Positions 18,904-28,505 of a stretch of 64,000 nucleotides of DNA are shown here, in pieces. The stretch covers positions 1 through 64,000 of the forward strand of contig JAZKJM010000001.1 in the NCBI GenBank assembly GCA_040384265.1, written 5' to 3'. Under the pieces are notes generated by a model. The model was not told where the DNA came from, made no database searches, and was given only the letters and a program-made list of their open reading frames with translations. The translations under genes and the position numbers were made by a program. Source of the DNA: Pseudomonadota bacterium (GTDB lineage: Bacteria > Pseudomonadota > Alphaproteobacteria > Rickettsiales > UBA3002). Numbering within the stretch: the first letter of the stretch is position 1; every line of letters begins with the position of its first letter.

Positions 18904-20118
18904 ATGCCAAAACCGCAAGATGCCGAATCGATCGAAAAATACGAAGACGCCGGGCTTGAAACAAAGCTCGTCCACGGCGGCAGCCTGCGCTCGCAATATG
19001 GCGAGGTTTCGGAGGCCATTTTCCTCAATTCCGGCTTCTGCTATGACAGCGCCGAAACCGCCGAGAAGCGCTTCAACGGCGAAGAACCGGGCTTTGTCTA
19101 CTCCCGCTACCGCAACCCAACGCTGGCCATGCTCGAAGACAGGCTGTGCCTGCTCGAGGGCGCGCAGAGCTGCATCGCCGTCGCATCCGGCATGGCGGCG
19201 GTGTTTGCCAGCCTCATGGGTGTGCTGAAAGCGGGCGACCGCGTGCTCGCCAACCGCGTGCTGTTTGGCTCCTGCCATTACATCATCACCGAGATTTTGC
19301 CGCGTTTCGGCATCACCACCGAACTGGTGGATGGCCACGACCTGCCCGCATGGGAGCGCGCCCTCAGCACCCCGGCGCAGGCGGTGTTCATTGAATCCCC
19401 CGCCAACCCAACGCTGCAGCTCACCGACATCGCCGCCGTGTGCGCGCTTGCAAAAAAAGCCGGGGCGCTGGTCGTGGTCGATAATGTCTTCGCCACCCCG
19501 ATGTTCCAAAAACCGCTCGCCCTCGGCGCGGATATGGTCGTCTACTCCACCACCAAATATTTCGATGGGCAGGGCCGCACGCTCGGCGGCGCCATCCTCG
19601 GCGACAAGCAGCTGCTGGAAGAGCGCATCCTGCCCTTCCACCGCCACACCGGCCCGGCGCTCAGCCCGTTCAACGCCTGGGTCATCCTCAAAGGCCTCGA
19701 AACCCTGCCCATGCGCATGGAACGCCACACCAGCAACGCCCAGACCCTCGCCGAGCTGATGGAAACCCACCCGGCGATTGAAGCGGTCTACTATCCCGGC
19801 CTGCGCAGCTTCGCGCAATACAGCCTCGCCCAAACGCAAATGAGCGGTGCGGGCGGCCTCATCGCCTTCTCGCTGAAGGGCGGCAAAGCGGCCGCTTTCC
19901 GCTTCCTCAACGCATTGTCGATCGTCGCTATTTCCAATAATCTTGGCGATGCAAAAAGCCTCGCCACCCACCCGGCGACCACCACCCACAGCAACATGAC
20001 CGCCGACGCCCGCGCCGCGATTGGCATCACGGATGGCACCTTGCGCCTGTCCGTCGGCCTCGAATCCATCGCCGACCTGAAGCGCGACATCACCGCCGCC
20101 CTGCAGGCCGCTGCGTGA
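18904..20118 (+). CDS. metZ: O-succinylhomoserine sulfhydrylase
   Basis: PLP enzyme of the Cys/Met metabolism fold that makes homocysteine from O-succinylhomoserine and sulfide. In the 404-residue product the Schiff-base lysine is K218 in YSTTKYFDGQGR, and SRYRNPT and ASGMAAVFASL are typical. The C-terminal part has HPATTTHSNM. The longer open frame upstream lies over queE and is discarded. The stop overlaps the GTG start of the next gene by four bases. An alternative would be cystathionine gamma-synthase, but the QGRTLGG context favours MetZ. Confidence 0.93.
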   Translation: MPKPQDAESIEKYEDAGLETKLVHGGSLRSQYGEVSEAIFLNSGFCYDSAETAEKRFNGEEPGFVYSRYRNPTLAMLEDRLCLLEGAQSCIAVASGMAAVFASLMGVLKAGDRVLANRVLFGSCHYIITEILPRFGITTELVDGHDLPAWERALSTPAQAVFIESPANPTLQLTDIAAVCALAKKAGALVVVDNVFATPMFQKPLALGADMVVYSTTKYFDGQGRTLGGAILGDKQLLEERILPFHRHTGPALSPFNAWVILKGLETLPMRMERHTSNAQTLAELMETHPAIEAVYYPGLRSFAQYSLAQTQMSGAGGLIAFSLKGGKAAAFRFLNALSIVAISNNLGDAKSLATHPATTTHSNMTADARAAIGITDGTLRLSVGLESIADLKRDITAALQAAA

Positions 20119-20603
20119 AAAAGCGCCTACCGCTTATCCTGTTTTTCTGCCTTCTCGCGATGGCGGTTTACCTTGCCCTCGACACCGCACCAGCACCCCA
20201 AAAAACCGAAACCCTGCGCGCCCATATTGACCGCACCCACCGCGGCGCGCTCACCCTCAACCTTGAGCTCGTCACCACCCCCGAGGGGCGTGAACGCGGA
20301 CTCATGAACCGCACCAGCTTGCAGCCGTATGACGGCATGGCGTTCTTCTTCCCGCGCGTCGCCCCGCAGTATTTCTGGATGAAAAACACCCTCATTCCGC
20401 TCGATATCCTCTTCATCGACCAGAACAGGCGCATCGTCACCATTGCCCGTGGCGAGCCATTCTCCGAGGCGCGACTAGGCAGCAACGGCCCCATCGAAAC
20501 CGTGATTGAGCTTGACGCTGGCCGCGCCGCGAAGGATGGTATCGCGGTAGGGGATGTCGTCCATTATGAAACCAAAGTTCCGCCCAGCCAACTGGCTCGC
20601 TAG
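20115..20603 (+). CDS. DUF192 family exported protein
   Basis: Small exported or membrane-anchored protein of the DUF192 family, whose function is unknown. The 162-residue product has one N-terminal hydrophobic segment (residues 5-22) and a DUF192 body with RERGLMNR, MAFFFP and the signature FWMKNTLIPLDILFID. It starts with GTG overlapping the metZ stop by four bases, suggesting coupling to metZ. Its 3' end overlaps the next gene by 38 bases. Confidence 0.88.
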   Translation: MKKRLPLILFFCLLAMAVYLALDTAPAPQKTETLRAHIDRTHRGALTLNLELVTTPEGRERGLMNRTSLQPYDGMAFFFPRVAPQYFWMKNTLIPLDILFIDQNRRIVTIARGEPFSEARLGSNGPIETVIELDAGRAAKDGIAVGDVVHYETKVPPSQLAR

Positions 20604-21090
20604 CGTACTCGCTCTTGCATTGCCGCTCATGGCAAGCGCGCAGGCAAGCTCCGTCATTTTCGAGCGCGCGGATGTCACGATCGAATCCCCGCCATCCACC
20701 GATAAAGAACCAAAACCCAGCCACCCCACGCTGAAATACAGCGTCGAATCCCGCCCCGAAGACGCGCTGCGGCTGGAATATATCCACACGCTCAACGGCC
20801 TCACCGCCGATACCGGTGTCCTCATCGTCTTCGATGCGCCAAGCATGGTGCCGCTGCCCGCCATGAAGGTCTACACCCCGGTCGATGCCCTGTTCATCGC
20901 GGATGATGGCACGGTCGTGCAAATCCTACCCAATGTGGTGCTGGGCGACATTACGCAGGAAATCAAAGCACGCGAGCCGGTGAAGGCCTTCTTCTTCATC
21001 AAAGCGGGCGAAGCGGCAATGCGCAACATCCACCCGCGTGACACCGTCAGCGGCAAAATGTTCGCCATCGCGCCGCCGGTGCAGCAGTAG
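20566..21090 (+). CDS. Divergent DUF192-like exported protein
   Basis: Exported protein of 174 residues with a signal peptide ending near LMASAQASS. Its C-terminal half resembles the DUF192 body of the gene before it: MKVYTPVDALFIADDG lines up with MKNTLIPLDILFIDQN, and AGEAAMRNIHPRDTV with AGRAAKDGIAVGDVV. The signature Trp before MK is replaced by Ala, so this copy looks degenerate or repurposed. ATG at 20566 is preferred; an in-frame ATG at 20554 is possible. The overlap with the preceding gene implies coupled translation. Confidence 0.75.
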   Translation: MKPKFRPANWLASVLALALPLMASAQASSVIFERADVTIESPPSTDKEPKPSHPTLKYSVESRPEDALRLEYIHTLNGLTADTGVLIVFDAPSMVPLPAMKVYTPVDALFIADDGTVVQILPNVVLGDITQEIKAREPVKAFFFIKAGEAAMRNIHPRDTVSGKMFAIAPPVQQ

Positions 21091-21096
21091 GCCGCG

Positions 21097-21525
21097 TCAG
21101 CCAACCACCCGCAGCGCTTCAATCACCACATGTGCCTGCGCCTGGGGGTATTCATCCACCAATGTCAGGTGAATCACGGCCTTATAGCCCACCGGCGTCA
21201 AGGCCTGCAGCGCGGCTGCCGCACCGCCATGCAGCCGGAACGTCGGCTTGCCGCTGGGCAAATTCACCACTTCGATATCGCGCCAGTAAATCCCACCACC
21301 GGCGCCGACGCCCGTGCCCAGCGCCTTGCCCAGCGCCTCTTTCGCCGCAAAGCGCTTCGCATAGGTGCTGGCCACGCCATTGCGGTTGCCGCCGCCGGCC
21401 CGGCGCTGCGCCTTCGCGCGCTCGCCCTCGGTGAAAATGCGCTGTTCAAACGCCACGCCAAACCGCGCCAGCGAGCGCTCAATGCGGGTGATGTCGCAAA
21501 TATCGTTACCAATGCCCAGGATCAT
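21097..21525 (-). CDS. acpS: Holo-[acyl-carrier-protein] synthase
   Basis: Transfers 4'-phosphopantetheine from CoA to acyl carrier protein. The 142-residue product has the two family motifs: GIGNDICDI at the N-terminus with the metal-binding Asp, and [16 protein letters not shown] in the middle. Its ATG overlaps the pdxJ stop by four bases (ATGA). The pdxJ-acpS pair is normal for alphaproteobacteria. Confidence 0.96.
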
Positions 21526-22256
21526 GCGCGCGCCTCATCCATCAACTGCCGCATCCGCGCAATCGCGGCCGGCAACCCCATGAACATCGCCTCGCCCATC
21601 AGGAAATGGCCGATATTCAGCTCGTGCAGCTCCGCCATCGCCGCTACCGGGCTCACATTGTCAAATGTCAGCCCATGCCCTGCATGCATCTCCAGCCCCA
21701 GCGCATTCCCAAGAGTCGCCGCCCGCTGCAACAGCGCCAGCTCCTCACCAAACTCCGCACTCTCACGGTCAAACTGCGCATACCGCCCCGTATGCAGCTC
21801 CACAATATCCGCACCGACACGTTTGGCCGCTTCCAGCTGTGGCGCCTGCGGGTCGATGAACAGCGAAATCCGGATCCCCACCGCCACCAGCGGCGCAATA
21901 TACTCCCGCAGCGCCGCCTCCTGCGCCACCACATTCAGCCCGCCTTCGGTCGTCCGCTCCGCGCGGCTTTCGGGCACCAGGCAACAGGCATGGGGGCGAA
22001 TTTCAAGCGCGATGCGCTGCATTTCCGCCGTCGCCGCCATCTCGAAATTCAGCGGCAGGGCAATGGCATGCTTCAGCCCCACCATATCCGCATCCGTGAT
22101 ATGCCGCCGATCCTCCCGCAGATGGGCCGTAATCCCATCCGCCCCGGCCTGCTGCGCCAGCAGCGCTGCCGCCACGGGGTCCGGGTGCGCCCCACCGCGC
22201 GCATTGCGCAGCGTCGCCACATGATCGATATTCACGCCCAGTCGAAGATGATGCAT
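21522..22256 (-). CDS. pdxJ: Pyridoxine 5'-phosphate synthase
   Basis: Condenses 1-deoxyxylulose 5-phosphate with 3-amino-2-oxopropyl phosphate to give PNP in the DXP-dependent vitamin B6 pathway. The 244-residue TIM barrel starts with [17 protein letters not shown] and has [21 protein letters not shown] and GHGLTFDNV, all typical. It is coupled to acpS. A terminator-like hairpin at 22295-22326 separates it from the two unrecognised genes upstream. Confidence 0.97.
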
Positions 22257-22294
22257 GCCACAAGCTTACAACGCCCACGCCGCCGCACCAACGA

Positions 22295-22326
22295 AAAAAG
22301 GCGATCCCGTGGGGGACCGCCTTTTT
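22295..22326 (-). terminator. Rho-independent terminator of the two-gene unit
   Basis: The stem pairs 22295-22303 with 22318-22326 (nine bases), then one mismatch and four more pairs around a GTGG loop. A- and T-runs flank it, so it reads as bidirectional. On the minus strand it lies after the 115-aa gene and before pdxJ, and would end transcription of the upstream pair. Confidence 0.85.
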
Positions 22327-22346
22327 CATAAACCATCCGCTAGCAA

Positions 22347-22694
22347 TCAGCGATCGCGCTCGGAGGATTGCTGGCGCTCGCTCATCACCCGGTTGGTGTG
22401 ACGCCCAAGCACTTTTGAGCCCGCATAGACCGTACCAGCAGCAAGCCCCGTCGCGGCCAGAGCTGCCGTCACCGGCTTCTCTTTCGCAATCCCAACGATG
22501 GCCTTGCCGAAGCTGTTGTCGTGGTTCTTGATCGCTGCTGCAACATACGCATCACCAGCCTGAACACCCTGCTTGGCATTGCGCGCTGCTGCACTGGCCG
22601 CCGACCCTGCATGCCCCGCCACGTCGCCCAGGGACGACCACAGCGACTTCATGCTGGCCTTGAAACCGTTAGCTGCTGCAGCGGCGCCAGACAT
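22347..22694 (-). CDS. Unrecognised Ala-rich protein with C-terminal hydrophobic segment (115 aa)
   Basis: Not recognised. The product is alanine-rich and has one predicted hydrophobic segment at about residues 73-97 followed by an 18-residue polar, Arg-rich tail; there is no N-terminal signal peptide. The segment resembles that of the gene just upstream (shared pattern L..G.VYA....LG), so the two may be related or targeted alike. It is 11 bases downstream of the 435-aa gene and followed by a terminator, so the two form a transcription unit. Confidence 0.65.
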   Translation of the reverse strand: MSGAAAAANGFKASMKSLWSSLGDVAGHAGSAASAAARNAKQGVQAGDAYVAAAIKNHDNSFGKAIVGIAKEKPVTAALAATGLAAGTVYAGSKVLGRHTNRVMSERQQSSERDR

Positions 22695-22705
22695 TCATTA
22701 GCTCC

Positions 22706-24013
22706 CTATGCGCGACCGGTTGCTGGCTCGTTGTTGCGGCTGTTGGCCACTTCCGAAGCACGGTCGCCCGGCCCCTTGTTACCCAGCGCCGACACGGCAG
22801 CATACACGGCACCCGTAACCAGCGCACCAGCGCCAATCACCTTGCCCCAACGCGTGGAACCGATGGCGCCATGCTTGGTCACCATTTCACTGACCGATTT
22901 GCCTTCTTTCTTGGCAACTTCTTCCATCCATGGCTGCGTACGCTTGAACTCGAACGCCTTCGTGAAGAAGCCACGGCCTTTTTCACCCGTCGATGACGCG
23001 CTCGAAGCAAGCGAGCTCATCGCCGAAGATGCGGTCTTCACCGTTTTAAACGCTTCACGTTCTGCAGCCGAGAACTCTTTTTCCATCGCACCGTAGATGT
23101 GGTGTTTGATGTCGGCATTGTCCGTCACCAGCGTATCAAGTTTTCTGCCTTCTGCCTCAATCGCTTTATCCAATTTACCTTTGAAGAAGCTATCTGCCTT
23201 CTCTGCTTGAAGCTTACGGATTTCTTTACCGATTTTCAGCGCTTCAGCCTGTGCAGCCGCAATTTCCGTTTCCAGCGTCGTGGCGATATGGTTCAGATCC
23301 AAACCGCTAATATTCGCTTTATTTTTAACCCCGGTCACGCCTGCCGCAAACTGATCTACAACTTCTTTCGGCAGCACATCTTTGATGCCTTCCGGTGCGG
23401 AAGCAAGAAGCTTCTTGATGCTTTCTTCAGTGTACTCGGCTCCACCGTGCGCAGTAACCAGTTGATCAATCGTGCTGCGCAGGCTCTTCACTTCACCGTC
23501 AAGCTTGGCAAAATCAATTACCGGCACCTTCTTCTCGACGCCATCGACCACTTTCTTGAACTGCTCCACACCTTTAAGGACGTTTGACGCATCTGCCTCA
23601 AGGAGGTTGATCGAATCAGGATGCGCCACCAAAATTTTCTTCAGCTTGGCAAGTTTATCGGCACCCGCAGCTTCACCAGGCGTCAGGGTTTTGATAACCG
23701 CTTCGATTTCGTCCGCAGCGCCGAACACGCCCGAGATGCCCTTAACCTCATCCGCATGCTTTTTGGCTAAATTTTTGAACACCCCGCGCAGGGCAGCGGC
23801 TTCTTTCACGTCTGCAATTTCAGCAGCGCTGGCGGTTTTTGCTGCAGCGGCAAATTCTTTGGCAGCCGTTTTCAAAGCATCCACATCCGTGAGCACCGTT
23901 TCACCGAGCTTGACTGTTCCATCAGCAAGGAAGCTGTATTTGACATCGCCTACTTTCAGTTTGACGGTCCCTGCTTCAACATTCCCAAAATCAAAAGCTG
24001 TGGTGGTGGCCAT
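22706..24013 (-). CDS. Unrecognised Ala/Lys-rich protein, probable C-terminal membrane anchor (435 aa)
   Basis: Not recognised. The N-terminus (about residues 15-42) looks like a beta-hairpin, the middle is Ala/Lys/Glu-rich and helical with a coiled-coil-like stretch at about 245-330, a Ser-rich patch (SSLASSASSTGEKGRG) follows, and a hydrophobic segment lies at about 390-411 with a 24-residue polar tail. There is no signal peptide. The architecture suggests a tail-anchored or secreted protein, but this is inference. ATG follows GGAGAAG. It lies 102 bases downstream of rel, between rel and pdxJ. Confidence 0.7.
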   Translation of the reverse strand: MATTTAFDFGNVEAGTVKLKVGDVKYSFLADGTVKLGETVLTDVDALKTAAKEFAAAAKTASAAEIADVKEAAALRGVFKNLAKKHADEVKGISGVFGAADEIEAVIKTLTPGEAAGADKLAKLKKILVAHPDSINLLEADASNVLKGVEQFKKVVDGVEKKVPVIDFAKLDGEVKSLRSTIDQLVTAHGGAEYTEESIKKLLASAPEGIKDVLPKEVVDQFAAGVTGVKNKANISGLDLNHIATTLETEIAAAQAEALKIGKEIRKLQAEKADSFFKGKLDKAIEAEGRKLDTLVTDNADIKHHIYGAMEKEFSAAEREAFKTVKTASSAMSSLASSASSTGEKGRGFFTKAFEFKRTQPWMEEVAKKEGKSVSEMVTKHGAIGSTRWGKVIGAGALVTGAVYAAVSALGNKGPGDRASEVANSRNNEPATGRA

Positions 24014-24115
24014 AATTCTTCTCCTAAAAACTCGTTACATGAACCAAACATAACCGATTCATCCACCAAGTAGTGTGAAGATTATGTGACAATGAGGTTA
24101 ACGGCCCGTTTGGGG

Positions 24116-26266
24116 CTAGACGCGCTCGACGCTCTGGATCACGTCTTTGGCTCTCAGGCTCGCGATAATGCTGTTCAGGTGCCGTGCATTTTTTACTTCG
24201 ACATCGATTAAAATATCAAAAAAATCGGTGCTGCGGTTGGTGATTTTTAGGTTGCTGATGTTGCCCTCATCCTTCGCAATCACGTTGGCGACGCTGGCCA
24301 GCGCGGCCGTTTCGTGGCTCAAACTCACCCGCAGGCGGCCGATGAACAGCTCGTCCTGCCCGCTCGCATCCCACGCCACATCGATCCATTTTTCGGGGCT
24401 ATCGGCGAAATTCTCGAGCGTATCGCAATCCATCGTGTGGATGGTAATCCCCTTGCCGGTCGCCACAATGCCGACGATTTTATCGCCGGGAATCGGGTGG
24501 CAGCAGCCCGCGTAATGGATCGCCATGCCGGGCACGAGGCCCTTGATCGGCATCGGCACCGCTTTTTTCGATTTCTTCTTGATGTTGATGATATCAAACG
24601 GATTTTTAACCCCGTGCGACTCGGATTTGCGGGTGTGGAACACCGCATCATACACCTGGTTGCGGTTGATAATCCCCTCGCCCACCTCGGCGAACAGGTC
24701 ATCGACCTCCTTCTTCTTCAGCACCGCCATCGCCGGTTCGAGCATTTTCTCGGTCAGGTCGTGGCCTTCCTGCTTGAAGGTTTTGGTGAGGATGGCCTTG
24801 CCGAGGGTCACATATTCCTCGCGCTGCTGGTCGCGAATATAGCGGCGGATCTCGGATTTCGCCTTGCCGGTGACCACAAACCGCTCCCAGCTGGGGCTCG
24901 GCGTCTGGGTTTTGGCGGTAATAATATCGACCTGATCGCCGTTTTTAAGCGTGTGCTTCAGCGGCACAATCCGCCCGTTCACCTTGGCGCCAACGCAGGT
25001 GAAGCCCACGCCCGAATGCACCGCAAACGCGAAATCCACCGGCGTACTGCCGCGCGGCAGGGCGATAATATCGCCCTTGGGCGTGAAGCAGAACACCTGG
25101 TCGTGATACATTTCCAGCTTGGTATGTTCGAGGAACTCCTCCGCACCTTCGGATTGCTCCATGATTTCAAGCAGTTCGCGCACCCAGCGGTATTGCTTGC
25201 CCTCGGTGCTGACCTTATCCTTGCCTTCACCCTGTTTATAGCCCCAATGCGCCGCGATCCCGTATTCCGCGACCTCCTGCATGTCCTCGGTGCGGATCTG
25301 GATCTCGATGCGCTGCTGCTGCGGGCCAATAACGGCAGTGTGGATCGATTGGTAGCCGTTGACCTTGGGCGTCGAGATGTAATCCTTAAAATGGCCCGGA
25401 ATCGTGTGGTATTTCTCGTGAATCAGCCCCAGCGCATGGTAGCAATCCGCAATGCTCGGCGCGATGACGCGGAAACCCACAATATCCGCCAGCTGCTCGA
25501 AAGTGACGCCCTTGCTCTCCATCTTTTTCCAGATGGAATAGGGCTTTTTCTCGCGGCCATAGATTTTCAGGCCGTTCAGCCCGCCGCCCACCGCCAGTTC
25601 GCGGAGGATTTCCTCGACCCGCTGCACCTGCGTTTTACCCTGTTTACGCAAAAATTCCAATCGCTTGATGATGGATTCCCGCGCTTCCGGGAACAGCTCC
25701 TTAAAGGCCAGGTCCTGCAGCTCTTCCTTCATCCGCCGCATGCCGATGCGTTCGGCGAGGGCGGCATAAATCTCCAGTGTTTCACGGGCAATGCGCTGGC
25801 GTTTTTCCGGTTTGGGGATGTAGTGCAGCGTCTCCATGTTGTGCAGGCGATCGGCCAGCTTCACCATCAGTACGCGCAGATCCTGCGCCATCGCCAGCAC
25901 CAGCTTGCGGAAATTTTCCGCCTGTTTGCTCGATTCGGATTTGATTTCAAGCCGGTTCAGCTTGGTCACCCCATCCACCAGCCCGCGGATTTCGGCACCA
26001 AACAGATGCTCGATCTCATCCAGCGTGGCGTCGGTGTCCTCCACCGTATCATGCAACAAGGCGGTGATGATGGAAGCGGTATCCAGCTTATATTGCGTTA
26101 ATTTATAAGCAACTTCAACCGGATGCGAGAAATAGGGATCACCCGAGGCCCGCTTTTGCGCGCCGTGCTTTTGCATCGCGTAGACATAGGCGCGGTTGAG
26201 GGCGTCCTCATCCGCGTCCGGGTCATACGCGCGGATTTTATCCACCAACTCCATTTGCCGAATCAT
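24116..26266 (-). CDS. Bifunctional (p)ppGpp synthetase/hydrolase, RelA/SpoT type
   Basis: Controls the stringent response by making and degrading (p)ppGpp. The order of domains in the 716-residue product is the HD hydrolase (YFSHPVEVA and LLHDTVEDTDAT, intact), the synthetase (GREKKPYSIWKKM, DYISTPKVNGYQSIHT, IQIRTEDMQEVAEYG), TGS (about 390-450) and a C-terminal ACT domain. An intact HD site with a full synthetase suggests a single dual-function Rel/SpoT enzyme. ATG at 26266 is chosen over an upstream alternative start. It follows rpoZ on the same strand, as is common in alphaproteobacteria. Confidence 0.95.
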   Translation of the reverse strand: MIRQMELVDKIRAYDPDADEDALNRAYVYAMQKHGAQKRASGDPYFSHPVEVAYKLTQYKLDTASIITALLHDTVEDTDATLDEIEHLFGAEIRGLVDGVTKLNRLEIKSESSKQAENFRKLVLAMAQDLRVLMVKLADRLHNMETLHYIPKPEKRQRIARETLEIYAALAERIGMRRMKEELQDLAFKELFPEARESIIKRLEFLRKQGKTQVQRVEEILRELAVGGGLNGLKIYGREKKPYSIWKKMESKGVTFEQLADIVGFRVIAPSIADCYHALGLIHEKYHTIPGHFKDYISTPKVNGYQSIHTAVIGPQQQRIEIQIRTEDMQEVAEYGIAAHWGYKQGEGKDKVSTEGKQYRWVRELLEIMEQSEGAEEFLEHTKLEMYHDQVFCFTPKGDIIALPRGSTPVDFAFAVHSGVGFTCVGAKVNGRIVPLKHTLKNGDQVDIITAKTQTPSPSWERFVVTGKAKSEIRRYIRDQQREEYVTLGKAILTKTFKQEGHDLTEKMLEPAMAVLKKKEVDDLFAEVGEGIINRNQVYDAVFHTRKSESHGVKNPFDIINIKKKSKKAVPMPIKGLVPGMAIHYAGCCHPIPGDKIVGIVATGKGITIHTMDCDTLENFADSPEKWIDVAWDASGQDELFIGRLRVSLSHETAALASVANVIAKDEGNISNLKITNRSTDFFDILIDVEVKNARHLNSIIASLRAKDVIQSVERV

Positions 26267-26374
26267 GCACCCACTATAGCGGGTGCGCCGCACCATGGCC
26301 AGAAATCAGTGTATTTTTTGGCTGGAACACAGCCATCGAGGCGGGAATACGTCGAAATAGCAACAGCCGAAGAA

Positions 26375-27827: not shown

Positions 27828-28505
27828 CTATATTGCCCACTGCCCATTGCGCCCATTTATCTTTGCTAGCACACGCTTCACATGTTTTTCCGTCTGGTCG
27901 CCCACAGGAATGATGCCGGGCAATGCCTGATCTGGTGTAAAGCCACGCCCTACCGCGGCATCCAGCAATGCCTGTTGCGAGGCAAACCTGTAATTGCGAA
28001 CCACCTTATTGACTTGGCTGTTAGAAGCATGCTCGCCATCGGCCAATAGCTTTGCCAGTGATGCACGCACAACTCCCAAAAATTGACATGTTTTTTCAGG
28101 TATATGCTTCGTGTCAATGACGATAGTGTTACTGCTATTGGAGAAAATTTTTTCATCTTTCAAAAGCAGATACGTCAATGCCCTGCTAAAAAGGCCACGA
28201 TCAATGGGTTGAGGCAATTTACTCGCAGCATCTAATACGGCCTTCTCAAGCGCTTCAGCATCCAAGCCATTGTATTCAATATTTATTTTCTGAAGATAAG
28301 CCGAAGCATATTGCTGAAAGCGCAACCCAAAGTTTTCTGCATCATCAAAGTTCTTGCGCGACATACTAAGAGACATAGTATTAACAACCTCAATAAATTC
28401 TTGTGGCTCATATCCCCTAAATTCACGAATGGCCTTGAGCGCCGCGCCCAATCGCTTGCCATGCGCCTTTGCTGCTTTTTCTTCTGCTCCGTGTGCCATC
28501 ACCAT
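27828..28505 (-). CDS. Unrecognised protein (225 aa) between lipA and the RatA/Coq10 gene
   Basis: Not recognised. The product is mostly helical and soluble, with a KAHGKRLGAALKAIREFRGY N-terminal stretch that superficially resembles the start of a helix-turn-helix domain, but the rest gives no family. It is clearly AT-richer than its neighbours. Start options are 28505 and 28499. Its stop codon lies one base after that of lipA, and it is opposite in strand to both neighbours, so it appears inserted into a conserved pair. Confidence 0.62.
   Translation of the reverse strand: MVMAHGAEEKAAKAHGKRLGAALKAIREFRGYEPQEFIEVVNTMSLSMSRKNFDDAENFGLRFQQYASAYLQKINIEYNGLDAEALEKAVLDAASKLPQPIDRGLFSRALTYLLLKDEKIFSNSSNTIVIDTKHIPEKTCQFLGVVRASLAKLLADGEHASNSQVNKVVRNYRFASQQALLDAAVGRGFTPDQALPGIIPVGDQTEKHVKRVLAKINGRNGQWAI

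Follow-up and report, generated by a model that had tools for sequence, protein, structure and literature searches.

A conserved direct-repeat promoter box ahead of two unrecognised genes between rel and pdxJ, and its recurrence at other loci

The PmrA and CpxR effector regulons of Legionella and Coxiella are built on an OmpR-family direct-repeat box, which stands before many scattered, lineage-specific genes. The present analysis concerns a bacterial DNA stretch of 64,000 nucleotides (contig JAZKJM010000001.1; this whole stretch is called the window), in which a unit of two unrecognised genes lies between rel and pdxJ and is preceded by a promoter box with the direct-repeat pattern TTGTCACAnAAnCTTCACACT. 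As in the PmrA and CpxR regulons, a direct-repeat box of the OmpR-family type precedes numerous lineage-specific genes at scattered loci. However, the box has another sequence, the bacteria belong to another order, and translocation would be hypothetical in the present case. The promoter box and its recurrence are what is new here; the earlier note on this DNA described the two genes and missed the box, which ties them to a regulon.

The proteins encoded by the unit and by its counterparts in the same genus, ten in all and here termed the cassette proteins, have features in common with tail-anchored proteins, namely a C-terminal hydrophobic segment, a tail of 19–26 residues and no N-terminal signal. 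However, two of the ten carry an N-terminal segment, the segments are rich in alanine and glycine and weakly hydrophobic, and the topology is predicted. The cassette proteins also resemble what we take to be the small, C-terminally anchored proteins of DUF883 (ElaB/YqjD), with which they would share a helical body and a C-terminal segment, although there was no Pfam match to this family at E ≤ 1; for the 115-aa protein, Pfam at this level gave DUF5036 alone (E = 0.019, below the cut-off). The operator of PhoP in Mycobacterium tuberculosis is given as TCACAGC-N4-TCACAGC in PMC4832192, and it likewise consists of two direct-repeat TCACA half-sites arranged as 7 + 4 + 7 bp. It differs from the present box in the 3′ part of each half-site and in belonging to an unrelated phylum. 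The effectors of the rvh type IV secretion system (T4SS) of Rickettsiales are comparable in that the system is present in the genus and that the candidate substrates are without signal peptides (PMC9352585 and PMC11077975), whereas the rel–pdxJ unit contains no known effector domain and delivery of its products would be hypothetical.

Within open-licence papers, nothing was found that describes such a regulon or promoter for these bacteria, and the words regulon, operator, promoter and two-component occur nowhere in the main text of PMC11077975. The box picks out 5–20 candidate sites in each genome of the genus, which gives a testable list for the question of what is secreted and to whom. Dozens of orphan genes thereby gain a first point of access to their regulation, and the box is a marker that may track where free-living lineages part from host-bound ones. 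Pathogenic relatives use the same secretion system on host cells, whereas basal Rickettsiales retain it with hardly any of the known effectors (PMC9352585, for two such families).

The promoter box and its recurrence

Five genomes of the genus were compared, namely that of the window (G000) and four sisters (G001–G004), together with nine further genomes of the family outside the genus (G005–G013), and the order-wide scans covered 262 genomes. The spacer between rel and gene 1 is conserved in all five genus genomes, far better than the proteins. Its five-genome alignment gives TCACAnAAnCTTCACACT with a TATAAC-like element downstream, and the direct repeat TTGTCACAnAAnCTTCACACT sits in this spacer after rel. 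The pattern was searched for in the genus genomes with at most two mismatches, and the pattern read backwards served as the control. The five genus genomes contain 20, 19, 16, 15 and 5 sites, 75 in total, against 0 for the reversed control; the 20 sites of G000 are that of the cassette and 19 others. Exact matches in viral contigs numbered 0.

The per-position counts over the 75 sites give TCACAnA-AnCT-TCACACT, that is, two like half-sites in the same direction, with an 11-bp register and a 4-bp spacer. A TAnnnT element lies 18 or 19 nt past the box in 57 of the 75, whereas the other 22 offsets (10–33) give about 1.5 of 75, with a maximum of 6; by mismatch class, the element occurs at 18–19 nt in 7/11, 25/28 and 25/36 sites. 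The dinucleotide TG stands immediately 5′ of the pattern in 72–73% of the sites, and 61 of the 75 are outside mechanically called open reading frames (ORFs), though ORFs cover 80% of the bases at those loci. These three features (TG, TAnnnT spacing and non-ORF position) are outside the search pattern and confirm the box as a class. At the cassette sites, TAnnnT is found at this spacing in G000 and G004, with TATAAC instead in G001, G002 and G003. An ORF of at least 60 aa is located within 300 nt behind every one of the 75 sites, at a median distance of 48 nt and at 20–130 nt for 66 of them; behind the sites of G029 and G033, two genomes of other families, there is an ORF in 18 of 20 cases.

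The layout of the box is that used by OmpR/PhoB-family response regulators, and G000 has at least nine full-length OmpR-type regulators among the matches listed. In our judgment, the unit is rather probably one of about 20 transcription units of a single promoter class in G000, forming a two-component regulon of fast-evolving envelope or exported proteins. The computed features behind this reading are the conserved promoter and its recurrence, the −10 spacing in the genus, the layout and divergence of the proteins, their depletion in cysteine and the distribution of the box over lineages. The two unrecognised genes are probably switched on by the box. A response regulator, most likely of the OmpR/PhoB family, would bind the direct-repeat operator upstream of the −10 element and, on its cognate signal, would recruit RNA polymerase. 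Transcription of the unit would run from about position 24040 as far as the terminator and would not depend on that of rel or pdxJ, and the cell would then make fast-evolving, cysteine-poor proteins without signal peptides, acting at the envelope or outside the cell. The 435-aa protein, with its long helical body, may be held in the membrane by the C-terminal segment beside its 115-aa partner. The role of the unit would be an envelope or exported one in contact with other organisms, perhaps other bacteria or protists; the proteins of the regulon are possibly type IV secretion substrates, and the boldest form of this reading would have them delivered by the rvh system.

In the order, presumably Rickettsiales, the box is enriched in five further families and is at the control level in five large ones, according to counts tallied from hand-copied figures. 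The sites exceed the control in f1 (163 vs 5; 14 genomes), f24 (112 vs 8; 16 genomes), f5 (70 vs 5; 10 genomes), f17 (34 vs 1; 4 genomes), f21 (23 vs 3; 2 genomes) and f27 (12 vs 1; 1 genome), and a weak excess is seen in f13 (10 vs 1; 2 genomes) and f19 (5 vs 0; 2 genomes). There is no excess in f10 (11 vs 12; 23 genomes), f12 (25 vs 19; 51 genomes), f15 (30 vs 26; 37 genomes), f16 (13 vs 14; 18 genomes) and f20 (45 vs 39; 44 genomes), where f12 and f20, to judge by their genome sizes and closed contigs, would be host-bound crown families.

Proteins behind the box and competing explanations

The genes after the box are mostly orphans, which are cysteine-poor and without signal peptides. Some families recur across genomes: one cluster has six members, with G033, which belongs to another family, represented in it, and three further clusters have four members and span four genus genomes apiece. 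The first ORFs were scanned with Pfam for 16 of the 20 sites of G000, where an RTX-repeat protein alone was over the cut-off, and for 12 of the 55 sites of the other four genus genomes, eight of these being picked by eye; ten box-led proteins of G000 gave no match in NCBIfam. TAnnnT lies at 18–19 nt in front of the RTX protein of G000, an SLT transglycosylase of G004 (contig C40; L122 441–1469) and an Exo_endo_phos nuclease of G001, the latter two without a signal peptide. The nearest solved relatives of the SLT enzyme are the phage endolysin gp144 (E = 1.4e-9) and a lytic transglycosylase. Two successive box-led M23 peptidases without signal peptides, the second with PG_binding_1, are encoded in G003 (C104; L239 313–2849), and in G033 (C46:38850–42200; L191) the box is followed by a BTLCP (LapG-like) protease, a ShlB/FhaC-type transporter and the start of a two-partner secretion (TPS) adhesin. 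The domain matches of the box-led proteins point mostly outward.

Exported proteins are often cysteine-poor. The regulon proteins contain 4.1 cysteines per 1000 residues against 10.0 in the background (Mann–Whitney, 2e-7), and 32 of 59 against 20 of 138 have none at all; the ten cassette proteins have 2 cysteines in total. The test set comprised the 59 of the 75 first ORFs that qualified, and the background was the 138 mechanical ORFs of at least 100 aa, which are not verified genes, in the window and nine other stretches. In a crude test for a signal-peptide-like start, for which 61 first ORFs were eligible, only 3 had one.

Several results weigh against a regulon of envelope or exported proteins under a single promoter class. 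The pattern was built from the five cassette sites, and the matches of those five are circular, those of the other 70 not. The −10 coupling is weak in G029 (f17) and G033 (f21), with 8 of 20 sites at 18–20 nt and 5 of 20 at offset 30, and no TAnnnT was found at 14–25 nt in the M23 operon (G003), the LapG/TPS unit (G033) or a RimK unit (G029). A MazG-like protein (G003) and the RimK-like ATP-grasp protein (G029), both box-led, look cytoplasmic and do not fit. The functional picture comes from a small number of members that were selected by eye among the translations, with partial Pfam coverage, and the AlphaFold2 models of the two window proteins are poor, with a predicted local distance difference test (pLDDT) of 46 for gene 1 and 45 for gene 2, from alignments of 3 and 4 rows, respectively. 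The regulon shows no significant excess of hydrophobic segments (35/59 vs 64/138, p = 0.12); a narrower class with one to three segments gives p = 0.03, which is not leaned on. A C-terminal signal common to the regulon proteins seemed convincing by eye and was indicated by an expectation-maximization motif search, with a log-likelihood of 265.6 against 232–246 for shuffled tails. This candidate was rejected, as the motif disappeared once homologues were weighted and entire clusters were kept out of the training set (p = 0.34 against own shuffles and 0.42 against background). The VirB4 stretches examined carry no box.

The regulon might instead be the substrate set of the rvh T4SS, that is, contact-delivered antibacterial or anti-protist effectors with the cassette proteins as membrane-active members, which we consider rather unlikely. 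VirB4 is present in all five genus genomes and in two copies in four of them, which fits the virB4 duplication placed in the Rickettsiales ancestor in PMC9352585, and a VirB6-like protein is found in G000. The same source describes two basal Rickettsiales families, to which the genus may or may not belong, that keep the rvh system and lack almost all known effectors, and it names peptidoglycan-binding proteins as possible bacteria-killing effectors; the SLT, M23/PG-binding and nuclease proteins are box-led and have no signal peptides. However, the cross-validated search described above gave no common C-terminal signal (p = 0.34), the VirB4 stretches are without a box, the M23 operon lacks TAnnnT at the usual place, the RTX and TPS members take other export routes, and inspection by eye of the genes next to the enzymes examined revealed no recognisable immunity gene. 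In a wider form, which also seems unlikely to us, the box would mark the missing rvh effector repertoire of free-living, early-branching Rickettsiales, with the rel–pdxJ unit as one such pair. The peptidoglycan hydrolases, nuclease and membrane-active proteins would then be used against bacteria or protists and would have been lost when the crown families became host-bound, which is doubtful to the same degree. A serious, though improbable, rival is that the regulon serves the production of a gene transfer agent (GTA) or phage-like particle, with the orphans as lysis, release and accessory genes. A GTA-like cluster of G000 (L134, C1:355001–375000), with portal, S78 protease, capsid, connectors and DUF2460, contains four box sites and a weak fifth (3 mismatches), two of which are upstream of same-strand structural genes. 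Box-led orphans lie between a tail-tube-like gene and the DUF2460 gene, an arrangement that is kept, by eye, in G001 and G003 (L273, L274), and the box-led SLT enzyme resembles a phage endolysin, as mentioned above. Nine proteins of the cluster were named with Pfam, while the remaining genes bear names assumed from their order; no tape-measure gene was recognised in it. On the other hand, 16 of the 20 sites of G000 lie elsewhere, by eye, G029 and G033 have no box in such a cluster among the 20 sites read there (one, L198, is beside phage-like ORFs), and RTX and two-partner secretion do not fit. A short contig of G002 (L276) likewise carries similar box-led genes.

It is quite improbable that the box belongs to an ordinary phosphate regulon under PhoB, in which the unit would serve the envelope under phosphate stress. 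PhoB is over the NCBIfam cut-off in all eight genomes searched, and the half-site TGTCA presumably resembles a Pho box, but operators of the TCACA type are a better fit for the second half-site, TTCACA. Seven of the eight phoB neighbourhoods contain no box at up to 3 mismatches, the exception being that of G029 with a box about 2.2 kb off before a short ORF, and the pstB stretch of G001 has none on or just upstream of it at up to 5 mismatches; the Pho regulon is less likely because of these two results. This pstB was identified by its match to PstB in the PDB (E = 2.5e-91), the other pst genes by eye, and on the opposite strand, some 2 kb away, there is an orphan of 339 aa behind a box (C49; L275 11290–17887). 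In G005 (L227 3526–7926) and G033 (L226 9026–11634), phoB lies near a PhoX-like (DUF839) phosphatase, which was recognised by eye only, with no box. A mobile inserted cassette unlinked to other loci is the least probable of the explanations, and we hold it to be very improbable. The earlier note had read the unit as such an insertion, and the direct adjacency of rel and pdxJ in three genomes outside the genus (G006, G007 and G009) agrees with this part of the claim, as does a GC content at third codon positions of 0.56 in gene 1 against a window median of 0.75. Mobility does not stand against the position directly after rel in all five genus genomes, the conserved promoter, which is common to 19 other sites in the genome, and the absence of a recognised recombinase gene.

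The rel–pdxJ unit and its counterparts

The two-gene unit, its 11-base gap and its terminator were confirmed as first described (Table 1). A simple consensus scan did not list the terminator, nor did it give a sigma-70-type promoter ahead of the unit. The surrounding genes rel, pdxJ, acpS and queC are confirmed by Pfam. Both products were previously called unrecognised, which agrees with the searches of both proteins: the best E-values were 0.033 and 0.019 in Pfam (each under the cut-off), 0.013 in PHROGs, 0.035 in NCBIfam, and 0.1 and 0.015 for profiles against the PDB, all of them weak and none credible, and PADLOC gave no match. The C-terminal hydrophobic segments and short tails were likewise borne out; an N-terminal hydrophobic stretch is absent from both proteins, which have no signal peptide and are tail-anchor-like.

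Table 1. Positions of the rel–pdxJ unit, its control elements and its neighbours in the window
Feature	Position	Strand	Description or basis
Promoter box TTGTCACATAATCTTCACACT	24072..24092	-	two TCACA half-sites 11 bp apart; sole window site at ≤3 mismatches, 0.15 expected
-10-like TATGTT	24047..24052	-	19 nt after box
Gene 1 ribosome-binding site AGGAG	24021..24025	-	sequence
Gene 1, 435 aa	22706..24013	-	cysteine-free; starts with a short beta-rich part, then a long helical body, a hydrophobic segment at the C-terminal end and a tail of 25 aa; low-confidence model
Gene 1 hydrophobic segment	22784..22840	-	residues 392-410, mean Kyte-Doolittle (KD) value 1.88
Gene 2 ribosome-binding site GGAG	22702..22705	-	within 11-base intergenic gap; sequence
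Gene 2, 115 aa	22347..22694	-	cysteine-free; helical, with a hydrophobic segment at the C-terminal end and an Arg-rich tail of 22 aa; low-confidence model
Gene 2 hydrophobic segment	22416..22472	-	residues 75-93, mean KD 1.22
Intrinsic terminator hairpin of unit	22294..22327	-	15-pair stem, -23.5 kcal/mol, T run at end
rel (RelA/SpoT), conserved upstream neighbour	24116..26296	-	Pfam
pdxJ, conserved downstream neighbour	21522..22256	-	Pfam

When the sister genomes were checked, the unit was found directly after rel in all five genus genomes, with one to three genes each: 435 + 115 aa in G000, 430 + 109 + 313 aa in G002, 400 + 106 aa in G003, 167 + 103 aa in G004, and a single 182-aa gene in G001, the one exception to the pairing of a larger with a small gene. 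Next after the unit is pdxJ in G000, G001 and G002, and the contig ends before that point in G003 and G004. Outside the genus, pdxJ is within about 15 bases of rel in G006, G007 and G009, acpS and pdxJ come after rel on the opposite strand in G008, rel has other neighbours in G005 and G012 and is cut by the contig end in G011, and no rel was found at the threshold in G010 and G013. None of the nine family genomes outside the genus has a match to either protein. These results support the view that this genus either acquired the unit between rel and pdxJ or is alone in having retained it there.

The rel protein of G000 is 88–91% identical to those of the four sisters. The large proteins of G002 and G003 are 27–29% identical to that of G000, and the small proteins of G002, G003 and G004 are 22–28% identical to theirs in G000. 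In the 262 genomes of the order, the large-protein profile matched G000, G002, G003 and, weakly, G004 (E = 1.6e-4), with G001 not found; two extra matches (E = 0.003–0.004) are taken as chance. The large-protein alignment has no relative in viral contigs, and a search of plasmids and phages, made with the 435-aa protein and not the small one, gave no relative. No recombinase gene was recognised by eye at the unit, and none of the ten cassette proteins matches any Pfam family above the cut-off.

All ten cassette proteins in the five genomes have a hydrophobic segment near the C-terminus followed by 19–26 residues, and this common layout exceeds chance. A single C-terminal segment with a short tail and no signal peptide is found in eight of the ten, both window proteins included. 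The 313-aa and 182-aa proteins have an additional N-terminal segment, where they are weakly related to each other (E = 0.005), and the 167-aa protein resembles the large protein only in the tail part (E = 9e-4). Because of this N-terminal kinship and tail-only likeness, the cassette proteins look modular and fast-changing.

The pattern L..G.VYA....LG, noted earlier in both window proteins, is indeed present in each, but at the residue level the likeness of the two tails does not exceed chance, since an equally high score is reached by 27 of 300 zone-preserving shuffles. A profile of the large tails, run against 235 sequences, placed three of the four small tails in the first four non-training matches (E = 0.0087, 0.16 and 0.44); the match at 0.0087 ranks fifth of 235, a weak, one-way signal. 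With the reverse profile, a single large-type tail came up at the level of the background (E = 1.3), and hhalign gave a probability of 1%. An ancient duplication of the C-terminal part, as suggested in the earlier note, is not supported by these shuffle, profile and hhalign results. The tail profile recovered the ten training cassette tails at E ≤ 4e-10, and ten other matches followed at E = 5.8e-4 to 0.0099.

Some further features were observed apart from the unit. On contig C3 of G000, two DNA-identical copies of a 153-aa ORF (L234 1805–2266 and 2981–3442) lie just upstream of a VirB4 gene. A 225-aa gene of the window (27828–28505, − strand), with no Pfam match, no box and a local GC dip to about 0.44, comes after a lipoyl-synthase-like gene named by eye. 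At 20115–21090 of the window (+ strand), there are two overlapping tandem genes, with DUF192 in each according to Pfam.

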